Both the position numbers and the translations under genes were made by a program. From the NCBI GenBank assembly GCA_947451235.1, contig CANFZA010000007.1, positions 1-52,315 on the forward strand: 52,315 nucleotides of DNA, written 5' to 3'. The DNA comes from Methylophilaceae bacterium. Its GTDB lineage: Bacteria > Pseudomonadota > Gammaproteobacteria > Burkholderiales > Methylophilaceae. Below the pieces are notes generated by a model. The model was given only the letters and a program-made list of their open reading frames with translations. It was not told the origin of the DNA and did no database searches. Of the stretch, positions 26,869-31,576 are shown piece by piece; position 1 is the first letter of the stretch, and every line of letters begins with the position of its first letter.

Positions 26869-27432
26869 TTAAATATTAATAAGTGCGGTCATCTGCTGTT
26901 GGACAAACTCGGTTGGTTTTCGTTTAAAACTACTTTTTGCAAATTGATGCCAACGACCGAGCACGTAGCACACCATTAAATTAGCTTGCGCTTCGGCATC
27001 GCTTTTGTTGCCTGTTTGCGTTTCTGCAATGCGTAGACTTTGCTTAAGCGTCACTTCAATGCGGTCATATAATTGATTGATGCGTAGTTGTAGTTTTTCA
27101 TCTTCATTGACCAAAGCGTCGCCTATTAATACACGCGTCATGCCAGGATTTTTTTCGGCAAACACTAATAACATGGTGATAATGCGTTGCACTTGTCTTA
27201 AACCTTCGGTTTCTTCTGTACTTATTTTATTGATTAAGCCAAAGATGGTTTCTTCAATAAATACAATCAAGCCTTCAAACATTTGCGCTTTACTGGCAAA
27301 GTGGCGATACAACGCAGCTTCGCTCACGTCTAATTTAGCCGCTAGTGAAGCTGTGGTGATTTTTTCACGTTTAGGCGCTTCTAGCATTTTTGCCAGTGTT
27401 TCTAAAATTTGTTGTTTGCGTTCGCCTGCCAT
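26869..27432 (-). CDS. slmA: Nucleoid occlusion factor SlmA (TetR family)
   Basis: TetR-fold DNA-binding protein that blocks Z-ring assembly over the chromosome by binding specific sites and FtsZ. The 187-aa product has the HTH at about 25-52 (ITTASLAAKLDVSEAALYRHF), nearly identical to E. coli SlmA, then the family-specific NPGMTRVLIGDALVNEDEKL and INQLYDRIEVTLKQ helices. AAGGAAA precedes the ATG. It is the last gene of a leftward argB-nucleotidase-slmA group, conserved in betaproteobacteria. A generic TetR regulator is the alternative but fits less well. Confidence 0.85.
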   Translation of the reverse strand: MAGERKQQILETLAKMLEAPKREKITTASLAAKLDVSEAALYRHFASKAQMFEGLIVFIEETIFGLINKISTEETEGLRQVQRIITMLLVFAEKNPGMTRVLIGDALVNEDEKLQLRINQLYDRIEVTLKQSLRIAETQTGNKSDAEAQANLMVCYVLGRWHQFAKSSFKRKPTEFVQQQMTALINI

Positions 27433-27474
27433 TGTTATTTTCCTTACAAATGATTGTCTACTTATTATTTTTGA

Positions 27475-28143
27475 TTATAGCTTAAGGTGAGTAAGTGCTA
27501 ACACATCGCTTAAACGATAATCCACAAAATTGGGTTTTTGTAGCTGTTTTGTAATCCAAATAGTTTTCATGCCCAAACGTTTTGCTGTCATTAATGCGGG
27601 CAGGTTATCTTCCAGCATTACACAATGACACGCTTTTGTTTTGATAGTTTTGAGTAGCATTTGAAAGCCTCGCACTGAAGGCTTGGCATGAAACTTGGTA
27701 GATTCCACGCTAAATACTAATTCAAAACAATCGGCGATACCCATAATTTCTAGCACACGTAAGGCATAGCTACGCGGTGCGTTAGTGAATACCAACTTAC
27801 GCCCTGAAAGGCTTTTTAGCATGTGTCTAAGTTGTTTAACTTGAATCACCATTTCTGGTAAATTCATTAGGCGATGTGTTTCCAGCAAAAAATGATAAGG
27901 GTCAGTGCCGTGATGGCGCATTAAGCCTTTAAGCGTTGCGCCATAAATGCGCCAATAATGTTGGCGCATTTTATAGGCGGCAGGCTCGTCCAAATCTAAC
28001 GTATCCATGATGTATTGCGTCATGGCACGATTCATCACCGGAAAAATATGTGCAGAGGCATTGTGCAAGGTATCGTCTAAATCAAAGATCCAGACTTTAG
28101 TCTTGTTGTTCAAACTTAAATTCAAATTCAAACTTACGCTCAA
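27475..28143 (-). CDS. HAD-superfamily pyrimidine 5'-nucleotidase-like hydrolase
   Basis: Haloacid dehalogenase-fold phosphatase of 222 aa, related to the yeast Sdt1/Phm8 type pyrimidine 5'-nucleotidases. Motif I is WIFDLDDTLHNAS (about 18-30), motif II is FTNAPR, the conserved Lys lies in KFHAKPS and motif III is MLEDNLPAL. Translation probably begins at a TTG one base after the argB stop, with AAGG nine bases upstream. The first 13 residues (SLNLNLSLN-like) come from a small repeat with further in-frame TTG codons at positions 5, 7 and 11, so the exact start is uncertain. Physiological substrate unknown. Confidence 0.75.
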   Translation of the reverse strand: MSVSLNLNLSLNNKTKVWIFDLDDTLHNASAHIFPVMNRAMTQYIMDTLDLDEPAAYKMRQHYWRIYGATLKGLMRHHGTDPYHFLLETHRLMNLPEMVIQVKQLRHMLKSLSGRKLVFTNAPRSYALRVLEIMGIADCFELVFSVESTKFHAKPSVRGFQMLLKTIKTKACHCVMLEDNLPALMTAKRLGMKTIWITKQLQKPNFVDYRLSDVLALTHLKL

Positions 28144-28144
28144 A

Positions 28145-29073
<929 letters not shown>

Positions 29074-29109: not shown

Positions 29110-30729
29110 TTACAGCGTTTTGCTAAAAACCTTAGATTTACGCTGGAAGTTATAAAGTTTTTGCTTTTCCATAGGCAAGCTTTCAACCGGTTGTTCTTTG
29201 AACCCACGCTCTAGAAACCAATGTTCGGTACGTGTGGTTAGGCAAAATAAACTTTTAAAGCCCAAGTTTTTGGCCTCAGCCGCGCAATAGTAAAACAATC
29301 TATCGCCACGACCGCCGCCTCTGTAAGCTGGATCAATCGCCAAACAAGCAAATTCAGCGGTGCGTTCTGCCACAAAAGGGTAAAGCGCAGCACAACCAAT
29401 TATGCGATTGCCGTGTTCCATTACATAAAAATGGTTGATCTCCATTTCAATATGCTCACGTCCGCGACGCACTAAAAAGCCTTCAGCTTCTAGCGGCTCA
29501 ATTAATTTTAAAATCCCGCCTACGTCTTCAATATTCGCTTGGCGCATGCTTTCTAAGCTTAACTCGGTCACCATTGTGCCTATACCATCTAGCGTAAAAA
29601 GCTCTTGAATAATGGCGCCATCTATGTGGCGGCTAATTAAATGCGTTCTTGCCACGCCGTGCTCACAGGCCCGCACTGCGGCCGGTAAATAGTAATTAAC
29701 GTCTTCAGAAATATTAATCACCTGCTCATTTTCTTGCTCACGGCTTTGAATATTTTTAAGCAGATTTTTAGCTTTTTCTGCCGTCATTTCACGCAATAAT
29801 TCACCGCGTAAATTATGCACACCTTCAGAATCCATTAAAAATATGAGCTTATCTGCATCTAAGGCAATCGCTGCGCTGACGGCTACATCTTCTAAACTTA
29901 GGTTAAATGCCTCGCCTGTAGGCGAATAACCCAGCGGAGAAAGCATGACCAATTCGCCATCATCCAACCGTTTTTGTATGCCAACTGCGTCCACTCTGCG
30001 CACTTCGCCGGTATGTTGCAAATCTACACCATCACGCACGCCCAATGGTTTTGCCGTCACAAAGTTGCCACTCGCCACACGAATGTCCGCGCCCTGCATC
30101 GGCGAGTTGACCAAGCCCATAGAAAGCAGTGCTTCGATTTCTACCCGAATCGCGCCATTGGCTTCTTTTACCGCCTCCATCGCGGCATCGTCAGTCACCC
30201 GCAAACCATTCACAAACTTAGGTGAAAGTTTATCGCGACGTAAGCGCTTTTCAATTTGTGGACGCGCACCGTGCACTAACACCAGCCGTACTTCAAGGCT
30301 GGCAAGCAAGTTTAAATCGTGCGACAAAGCCACAAATTGTTTTTGATCGACCACTTCGCCACCAAAAGCAATCACAAAAGTGCGACCACCAAAGGCATGA
30401 ATATAAGGCGTGGCAGAGCGAAACCATTGCACGAAATCTTTGGGGTTAGGTTTGTTAGCAGCAGTCGCTGGCGGCAAGCTAGCCAAATAAGGCTGACGAT
30501 TTTCTTGTGCCGTTAAGTTGTCTAAAGGCGCATCGCTTTGCGTGTAAAGATAGGCTGGCGTGCAAGTTAAGGCCTCGGCTATTTTGCGTAACATGGCCTC
30601 AGAGGCGCCTAACTCGCCACGCTCTATGCGCGATAAATTACCCGCATCTGCGCCAATAACGCTAGCAAGACTTTGCAGTGTAAGGTGTAGTGATTTCCGC
30701 CTTTTGCGAATTGAAGCACCGAGGGACAT
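29110..30729 (-). CDS. argA: N-acetylglutamate synthase ArgA fused to an N-terminal XRE-type HTH domain
   Basis: Makes N-acetylglutamate from acetyl-CoA and glutamate, the first arginine step. Residues from about 98 to the end align with E. coli ArgA: FVQWFRSATPYIHAFGG, then the amino acid kinase-like domain (about 110-370; VHGARPQIE, LRVTDD, SGNFVTAKPLGVRDGVD) and the GNAT acetyltransferase domain (about 395-539; FACLAIDPAYRGGGRGDRL, ending YNFQRKSKVF). Residues 5-63 are a Cro/C1-type helix-turn-helix with recognition segment DAGNLSRIERGEL. A 35-residue linker joins them. No Met occurs between codon 46 and about 198, so a separate ArgA start is unlikely. ATG 30729 is chosen over TTG 30744 (544 aa); no strong ribosome site is seen. 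Normal ArgA is about 440 aa. Confidence 0.9.
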   Translation of the reverse strand: MSLGASIRKRRKSLHLTLQSLASVIGADAGNLSRIERGELGASEAMLRKIAEALTCTPAYLYTQSDAPLDNLTAQENRQPYLASLPPATAANKPNPKDFVQWFRSATPYIHAFGGRTFVIAFGGEVVDQKQFVALSHDLNLLASLEVRLVLVHGARPQIEKRLRRDKLSPKFVNGLRVTDDAAMEAVKEANGAIRVEIEALLSMGLVNSPMQGADIRVASGNFVTAKPLGVRDGVDLQHTGEVRRVDAVGIQKRLDDGELVMLSPLGYSPTGEAFNLSLEDVAVSAAIALDADKLIFLMDSEGVHNLRGELLREMTAEKAKNLLKNIQSREQENEQVINISEDVNYYLPAAVRACEHGVARTHLISRHIDGAIIQELFTLDGIGTMVTELSLESMRQANIEDVGGILKLIEPLEAEGFLVRRGREHIEMEINHFYVMEHGNRIIGCAALYPFVAERTAEFACLAIDPAYRGGGRGDRLFYYCAAEAKNLGFKSLFCLTTRTEHWFLERGFKEQPVESLPMEKQKLYNFQRKSKVFSKTL

Positions 30730-30763
30730 TAGTAAGCCAGTCAATTAAAATGTATTTATTACA

Positions 30764-30794
30764 TAATATTAATATTAAATTGTACTTAATGCAA
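30764..30794 (-). promoter_or_regulatory. Candidate argA promoter with overlapping palindromic operator
   Basis: On the minus strand TTGCAT (30794-30789), a 17-bp spacer and TAATAT (30771-30766) form a plausible sigma70 promoter. The perfect 14-bp palindrome TAATATTAATATTA (30764-30777) covers the -10 element. It ends 35 bp before the argA ATG. An operator here would suit autorepression by the HTH domain of the argA product, but AT-rich sequence makes chance palindromes common. Confidence 0.45.
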
Positions 30795-30841
30795 ATTTAG
30801 TGTAATTATTTTAGGCTCGTTCAAGCGGTTGCCTCACCAAG

Positions 30842-31576
30842 CTAGAAATCACCCCACAAAGTTTGCATGGCTGAAATCGTGGTTAACGCGGCGGTTTCTG
30901 TCCGTAAAATGCGTGGCCCTAATACTATTGATTGAAACCCGTGGCTAGTGGCCAAGTCAATTTCAAATTGTGCTAAACCGCCTTCTGCGCCTATTAGTAA
31001 TTGTGTTTCACCGCTAGGTTTGGCTAATTCTGCTAGACGCATCGCCCCAATAGGATTAAGCAGCAATCTTGTGGCAATGCCTTGTGGGTTAGCGCCCAAC
31101 CATTGTTGTAAGTTCATAGGCGCAGTGACTTGTGGCACCACAGCGCGACCAGATTGCTCGCAGGCAGAAGCTGCAATATTTTGCCAATGCTCGGTACGCT
31201 TTTCTGCACGCTCTGCTGAAAGTTTGACCACGCTGCGCTGGCTAGAAATCGGCTGTATTTTTGTAACGCCAAGTTCTACCGCTTTTTGAATGGTGAAATC
31301 CATGCGGTCACCGCTGGAAATCGCTTGTAGCAAAGTGATGCTTAGTGGCGATTCATTCGCCACTGGATTAGCTGCAGTAATGATGGCAAAAACGCTATTT
31401 TTGTTAATCGCAGTCAATGCGCAGTCATAGTCAAAACCATCACCGTTAAAAACCACTGCGCTATCGCCAACATTTAAACGTAGGGCGCGTGTTGCATGTG
31501 CTGCAGCGCTTTCTGAAAGTTGAATCGTTACACCTAAAGCCAAGGGATTGTTTGTGTAAAAGCGCAGATTTGCCAT
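30842..31576 (-). CDS. rsmE: 16S rRNA (uracil-1498-N3)-methyltransferase RsmE
   Basis: SPOUT-class methyltransferase that modifies U1498 in the small subunit decoding region. The 244-aa product has an N-terminal PUA-like domain (about 1-72) and the C-terminal knotted domain with GDRMDFTIQKAVELGVTKI, LLIGAEGGL and LGPRILRTETAAL, the family's SAM-binding signature. It lies upstream of argA on the same strand with a 112-bp gap. The ATG has no obvious ribosome site. Confidence 0.95.
   Translation of the reverse strand: MANLRFYTNNPLALGVTIQLSESAAAHATRALRLNVGDSAVVFNGDGFDYDCALTAINKNSVFAIITAANPVANESPLSITLLQAISSGDRMDFTIQKAVELGVTKIQPISSQRSVVKLSAERAEKRTEHWQNIAASACEQSGRAVVPQVTAPMNLQQWLGANPQGIATRLLLNPIGAMRLAELAKPSGETQLLIGAEGGLAQFEIDLATSHGFQSIVLGPRILRTETAALTTISAMQTLWGDF

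Follow-up and report, generated by a model that had tools for sequence, protein, structure and literature searches.

An N-acetylglutamate synthase fused to a Cro/C1-type DNA-binding domain is a family trait of Methylophilaceae and a probable repressor of its own gene

In Methylophilaceae, a family that uses methanol, N-acetylglutamate synthase (ArgA), which catalyses the first step towards arginine, carries a Cro/C1-type helix-turn-helix (HTH) domain ahead of the enzyme, and this HTH-ArgA fusion is a real trait of the family. The protein is probably both an enzyme and the repressor of its own gene, with arginine as co-repressor being the least certain part of the proposal. Autoregulation is strongly supported by comparison, since the fusion and a double site at the argA promoter are found family-wide, 24 HTH-less relatives gave no signal for such a site and no strong second copy was detected in the genome scan. 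The gene lies in the window, a stretch of 52,315 nucleotides from a Methylophilaceae bacterium (contig CANFZA010000007.1), with the following features:

28145-29029, minus strand: argB, N-acetylglutamate kinase, 80 bp downstream of argA
29110-30729, minus strand, stop codon included: HTH-ArgA fusion gene, 539 aa, ATG start common to relatives
29194-29469, minus strand: GNAT acetyltransferase domain, span of two Pfam matches, Acetyltransf_1 and Acetyltransf_7
29632-30381, minus strand: AAK domain, Pfam AA_kinase match
30439-30537, minus strand: variable linker, about residues 65-97, from alignment and pN/pS
30547-30711, minus strand: Cro/C1 (XRE) helix-turn-helix, residues 7-61 of 539, HTH_3 match
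30746-30797, minus strand: double-operator module, profile R1, 28.7 bits, E 3.5e-6 in its genome
30750-30764, no strand assigned: candidate operator 2, ATGTAATAAATACAT on the minus strand, 15-bp palindrome with its centre 30 bp from operator 1
30764-30777, no strand assigned: AT-only perfect palindrome TAATATTAATATTA, between the two candidate operators
30780-30794, no strand assigned: candidate operator 1, TTGCATTAAGTACAA on the minus strand, 15-bp palindrome, from family comparison
30842-31576, minus strand: rsmE, 16S rRNA methyltransferase, upstream of argA on the same strand

A sequence-only reading of this DNA had described HTH and ArgA as one continuous frame. This was confirmed: a single frame is open over 29110-30744 of the minus strand and spans HTH_3, then AA_kinase and GNAT (open reading frame and Pfam). 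HTH_3 scored 34.5 bits in the whole protein and 38.8 bits with the N-terminus, against a cut-off of 23, which places the domain among the Cro/C1 (XRE) type. By analogy, we take DAGNLSRIERG to be its recognition segment. The ArgA part scores as an intact enzyme, with 685 bits for the NCBIfam amino-acid N-acetyltransferase NF003641 (cut-off 344) and 575 bits for TIGR01890 (cut-off 203), which together with the AAK and GNAT domains assigns it to the classical ArgA equivalog. A start at TTG 30744 was discarded in favor of the ATG at 30729-30727 that is common to relatives. The sequence-only reading had also noted a gap without ATG between codon 46 and about codon 198; the gap exists but ends earlier, as no Met follows Met46 until residue 184. 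TTG and GTG codons are present between these two residues, and a separate internal non-ATG start of ArgA appears unlikely. Among 15 close relatives, pN/pS was 0.22 for the HTH, 0.62 for the linker, 0.09 for the AAK and 0.13 for the GNAT domain, values of which only the rank order counts with pS near saturation at about 0.73. In the family alignment the linker differs in length and sequence, and HTH residues R11, L32, S33 and E36 are the same in all 108 N-termini.

An ArgA match was found in 118 of 120 family genomes and in all 24 genera. From the 118 matching genomes 114 argA loci were drawn (leaving out G064, G092, G118 and G119), and the HTH-ArgA order, which the sequence-only reading had proposed to look for in related genomes, was seen in every one of them, in 108 by Pfam HTH_3 and in six by eye. 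The six had been set aside from the 108-protein count for a start that was not found (L013, L029, L118, L139), the lack of an ATG start (L079) or a frameshift (L138); their HTH was visible by eye. All 108 remaining N-termini matched both HTH_3 and HTH_31 at E 0.01, a count by E-value and not by individual scores against the cut-off. The protein set comprised 111 sequences, one of them an outgroup (L145). Relatives belonged mostly to Methylotenera, Methylophilus, Methylobacillus, Methylovorus, Novimethylophilus, Candidatus Methylopumilus and other Methylophilaceae (best 80 of 109), and the fusion is kept in near-complete genomes of 1.2-1.4 Mb too (g13, g15).

Outside the family, the matches that were listed began only beyond the HTH. 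Searching the order, 195 of 200 genomes matched, six of them in-family, and the non-family matches listed began at residues 49-104, mostly beyond 85; L145, the one beginning at residue 49, had no HTH in its N-terminus. Searching the phylum at E 1e-40, 118 of 398 genomes matched, two of them in-family, and the non-family matches listed began at least at residue 53. Inspection covered the matches listed in both searches; a rare fusion may exist among weaker or unlisted ones or in the 280 phylum genomes below E 1e-40. A similar fusion in another family (f31) was considered and dropped: four genomes of one genus with long frames, two matching from residue 53-54, had no HTH by eye. A metagenome-assembled genome labelled Sulfuritalea (L167) contains an HTH-ArgA that is 84% identical; it is probably a mislabelled or mixed Methylophilaceae bin.

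The idea that an HTH gene and argA were wrongly joined by annotation or assembly has a negligible probability. Two family records do show a broken or gapped frame, L138 with a frameshift and L118 with a run of N, and in both the HTH is readable in another frame. However, HTH and ArgA share one frame in 112 of 114 family loci, and matches to proteins of cultured strains, among them Methylotenera mobilis 13 and Methylophilus methylotrophus, set in at residues 4 and 8. As far as sequence allows, these observations refute an artefact.

Both candidate operators lie in the 112-bp intergenic region between rsmE and argA. The upstream regions of family argA genes contain two palindromes of the form TTGYR-N5-YRCAA. 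With spacings of 24-35 bp, the pair score reached a mean of 16.90 of 20 in 108 family regions of 110 bp each, as compared to 14.18 in dinucleotide shuffles (standard deviation of 20 shuffle means 0.09); this score was devised after the promoters had been read. The 24 HTH-less relatives from the order scored 13.79, like their own shuffles, in regions of 160 bp upstream of the match that are richer in G+C than those of the family. In 28 of the family regions the highest-scoring pair lay elsewhere than near the ATG; of the other 80, 67 had a spacing of 29-31 bp. When the second site had to lie at most 40 bp from the ATG and the spacing could range over 20-40 bp, the mean was 16.69 versus 14.13 for shuffled regions (standard deviation 0.10, maximum 14.38), and spacings of 29-31 bp occurred in 71.2 of 108 promoters (ties shared) versus 14.0 in 50 shuffled sets (standard deviation 3.0, maximum 20.7). 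Limiting the spacing to 28-32 bp at the same placement gave 30 bp in 62 promoters, 29 in 33, 31 in seven, 28 in three and 32 in three. Family promoters share ancestry, and such counts are therefore not independent. For operator 2, covariation was seen between the fourth base and the base paired with it (TA 48, CG 20, CA 15, TG 14; Fisher p 0.0009, relatedness ignored). The link between the arms was weaker in operator 1 (CA 37, CG 32, TA 21, TG 6; p 0.04), where the commonest combination, CA, is non-complementary.

Operator 1 covers the -35 position and operator 2 follows closely downstream of a TATAAT-like stretch. In operator 1, the left arm, TTGCAT, would itself sit at the position of a -35 element, and its conservation may partly be due to this role. 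A TATAAT-like hexamer (at least four of six bases) followed this arm after 14-19 bp in 105 of 108 promoters, most commonly after 17 bp (54 of 105), a count that has no shuffle control. A general promoter scan of 3.6 kb returned six sites versus 6.6 in shuffles, and the proposed argA promoter was not among them. In the streamlined genomes L134-L137 (g15), a second operator-like palindrome reaches the ATG of argA and would thus overlap the ribosome-binding region.

The sequence-only reading had put the regulatory element elsewhere, in a perfect 14-bp palindrome at 30764-30777 whose co-occurrence with the fusion in relatives it proposed to check. The palindrome is present. Its regulatory role and its co-occurrence did not hold up: when the 112-bp region was shuffled 1000 times with its dinucleotides preserved, 33 of the shuffles contained a palindrome of 14 bp or longer, and one that long was found between the sites in only 3 of 108 family spacers, the window's own counted. 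On these counts TAATATTAATATTA was ruled out as an operator, and it is probably due to chance. The spacer that it fills may hold the -10 element, TAATAT at 30771-30766 according to the 17-bp spacing. The stretch 30764-30794 suggested in that reading includes operator 1 as a whole and touches operator 2.

To judge the specificity of the double site, a profile of 53 positions (R1) built from 34 family promoters, the window's own sequence among them, was scanned against 120 whole family genomes; 34 of these had also supplied the profile, and the E-values are rough. At E 0.1, 89 of the 120 genomes matched and 31 did not. The 30 best matches (E up to 3.5e-6) were all directly upstream of argA, including the window's 30746-30797. 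The best matches elsewhere were partial (G054, E 9.1e-4; G092, 0.0015; G069, 0.0021), and among 16 weaker places one (L286) turned out to be an argA promoter. The scan of the 120 genomes thus returned no strong second double site. For argG, argC and argF, no R1 match was obtained at E 10 in 34 of 37 family loci (L290, L326 and L349 left out), while two argA controls were recovered. Scoring the upstream regions of these genes in 35 of the 37 loci (L326 and L349 left out) likewise gave none at 10 bits; three regions scored above the 95% value from shuffling their own mononucleotides, and one scored exactly that value. The gene start was set at base 1501 in this scoring, an assumption that fails for clipped loci (L289, L290, L297 and L348, for example). 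A wider regulon defined by the single palindrome TTGYAN5TRCAA was abandoned, as its 60 occurrences in the genome are non-specific. A pair of operator-like palindromes, separated by about 490 bp, recurs in the relatives L271-L278 (for instance L273:1211-1225 and 1701-1715), which look like one and the same place, judged by their sites. They score 16-17 bits each in L273-L278, less in L271 and partly less in L272. In L273 and L278 they lie inside what we take, from the protein sequences, to be a metW-like gene after a metX-like gene. The pair is probably a coding coincidence.

The form of the site and one residue of the HTH appear to change together, over few independent events. With Gly at residue 30, a site of at least 10 bits was found in 82 of 93 promoters, and with Ser in 2 of 15, as scored by a matrix derived mainly from Gly-type promoters. 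The Ser30 group consists of 11 genomes of g19 and four of g15. In the 11 g19 promoters and some of g15 the right arms are not intact, and the former retain two TTTGCA-like left arms 30-31 bp apart, as if the spacing had been kept while the right arm moved. L130 (g15) keeps the canonical site with Ser30. Two further g19 genomes, L025 and L029, have Gly30, and L025 has two canonical sites.

In 78 of 110 loci the argB gene lies behind argA in the same orientation, with a median gap of 61 bp; the other 32 are without argB in about 0.9-1.5 kb of flanking DNA, two of them without any downstream DNA. Co-transcription of argB with the HTH-ArgA gene is probable. An effect of the protein on argB, as raised by the sequence-only reading, is plausible only by this route. 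Further downstream on the same strand, 26869-28143 presumably encodes a HAD-like hydrolase and a TetR-like (SlmA-like) protein. As for the usual arginine repressor, ArgR (PF01316) was not found above cut-off in any of 120 family genomes (two weak matches below) or 150 genomes of the order (one weak match below), and the Pfam matches of the window protein include no ArgR domain, which sets it apart from ArgR proteins. ArgR loss as an event of the family was dismissed, as the 150 genomes of the order are also without ArgR above cut-off. A published account has ArgR conserved among gammaproteobacteria but missing from the other proteobacterial classes (PMC5343134). Given these 120 and 150 genomes, any control of the arginine pathway here must be other than ArgR.

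The enzyme part retains the arginine-contact residues. According to a review of N-acetylglutamate synthase (NAGS; PMC4490483), the N. gonorrhoeae enzyme contacts arginine by K201 and E270, and arginine binding displaces its N-terminal helix, tightens one of the twofold interfaces and changes the shape of the hexamer. These residues correspond to K294 and E376 of the 539-aa protein by alignment, with the chain numbering reduced by 20 (an assumed tag offset), and both are invariant in 109 aligned proteins; K294 lies inside the AAK match and E376 just C-terminal of it. The HTH is joined ahead of the region matching the mobile N-terminal helix. It is plausible that arginine gates DNA binding by HTH-ArgA.

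How could such a protein act on its promoter? The HTHs of adjacent subunits would pair, and each pair would bind one palindrome. With a centre spacing of 30 bp, nearly three helical turns, two HTH pairs of one hexamer could sit on the same face of the DNA. The bound hexamer would shut out RNA polymerase, leading to less argA, and less argB where co-transcribed. Arginine would be the co-repressor by moving the N-terminal helix that bears the HTH, the least certain step, and a single binding event would then both inhibit the enzyme and repress the gene. This complete scheme of one arginine switch, in which the inhibited AAK hexamer sets its HTH pairs 30 bp apart and clamps two operators around the argA -10, is somewhat more doubtful than probable. 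Of the arginine-responsive self-repressor proposed by the sequence-only reading, autoregulation is strongly supported by the comparison of fusion and double site, while the arginine part, with K294 and E376 invariant, remains plausible only. In general terms, we consider that the autoregulator is probably arginine-responsive.

Several other explanations share part of these data. The protein might regulate itself without arginine, either by constitutive HTH binding, with the level set by the ArgA concentration, or with acetyl-CoA, glutamate or N-acetylglutamate as signal, comparable to PutA with proline. Conserved sites and a conserved HTH carry no tie from binding to arginine, the variable length and sequence of the linker could mean loose coupling, and the signal of PutA is its substrate (PMC8249747). 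We nevertheless find this rather unlikely, since the HTH precedes the helix that moves upon arginine binding in the homologue and K294 and E376 are invariant in the 109 proteins, although the latter is expected in any feedback-inhibited ArgA. That a separate transcription factor acts on the palindromes, the fused HTH serving other DNA targets or protein contacts or being a relic, is improbable. Something besides ArgR must indeed control the pathway here, if anything does. Yet sites and fusion share their taxonomic range as far as tested, the scan turned up no other strong double site, in line with a dedicated autoregulator, the site form changes together with HTH residue 30, if in few independent events, and selection holds the HTH more tightly than the linker (pN/pS 0.22 versus 0.62).

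HTH-ArgA could also be an activator or control further genes: the comparison points to the sites and not to their sign, and single sites elsewhere are indistinguishable from background, with 60 in the genome. We regard this as very improbable. Sites that cover the -35 position and follow shortly after the -10 are usual for repressors and therefore favor repression, and the lack of a site at argC, argF and argG, by profile in 34 loci and at 10 bits in 35 upstream regions, speaks against wider control.

As a repressor of its own gene, HTH-ArgA would join known systems without being identical to any. Compared with a classical ArgA, NAGS of N. gonorrhoeae (2R8V), it shares AAK and GNAT (299 bits over residues 97-534) and the arginine-contact Lys and Glu, but has about 97 additional residues, Cro/C1 HTH and linker, before the N-terminal helix. 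The HTH alone resembles the P22 c2 repressor (1adr, E 1.3e-4) and the transcriptional regulator 9sf2 (E 6.2e-8), whereas the remainder of HTH-ArgA, unlike that of free-standing XRE repressors, is an enzyme. With ArgR it would share arginine-responsive repression of arginine synthesis; ArgR, however, governs a regulon, HTH-ArgA apparently has one target, and it is without the ArgR domain. Among enzymes that double as transcription factors, PutA binds DNA by a ribbon-helix-helix fold. According to PMC8249747, E. coli PutA, BirA and NadR are such trigger enzymes, and PutA represses its own gene at a single target region, as predicted for HTH-ArgA; the three are other enzymes of other pathways, and PutA responds to its substrate. 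HTH-ArgA shows two marks of a trigger enzyme, the fusion to a DNA-binding domain and, by comparison, a conserved site at its own promoter. It differs from the known ones as a biosynthetic enzyme with end-product inhibition, for which one ligand is proposed to serve both controls. Enzymes acting as transcription factors are thus already known. A Cro/C1-fused ArgA was not found described in our literature search, which left most subscription journals outside its scope, and its novelty is unproven. Among the kinds of NAGS that the review covers is an argH-fused one, and its text contains neither 'DNA-binding' nor 'repressor' (PMC4490483); four arginine terms looked for in a paper on Methylophilaceae transcriptomes are absent from its main text (PMC3728764).

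If the proposal is true, a biosynthetic enzyme is its own end-product sensor, at once feedback-inhibited and a single-target repressor, and does for argA, family-wide, what ArgR does elsewhere. ArgJ was found in 40 of 41 family genomes; if this ArgJ is bifunctional, the N-acetylglutamate made by ArgA may serve as a supplement. The proposed repressor would be a clear example of enzyme allostery being put to use again for gene control. With two defined sites and a fusion present throughout the family, it lends itself to a small and direct test in harmless laboratory methylotrophs.
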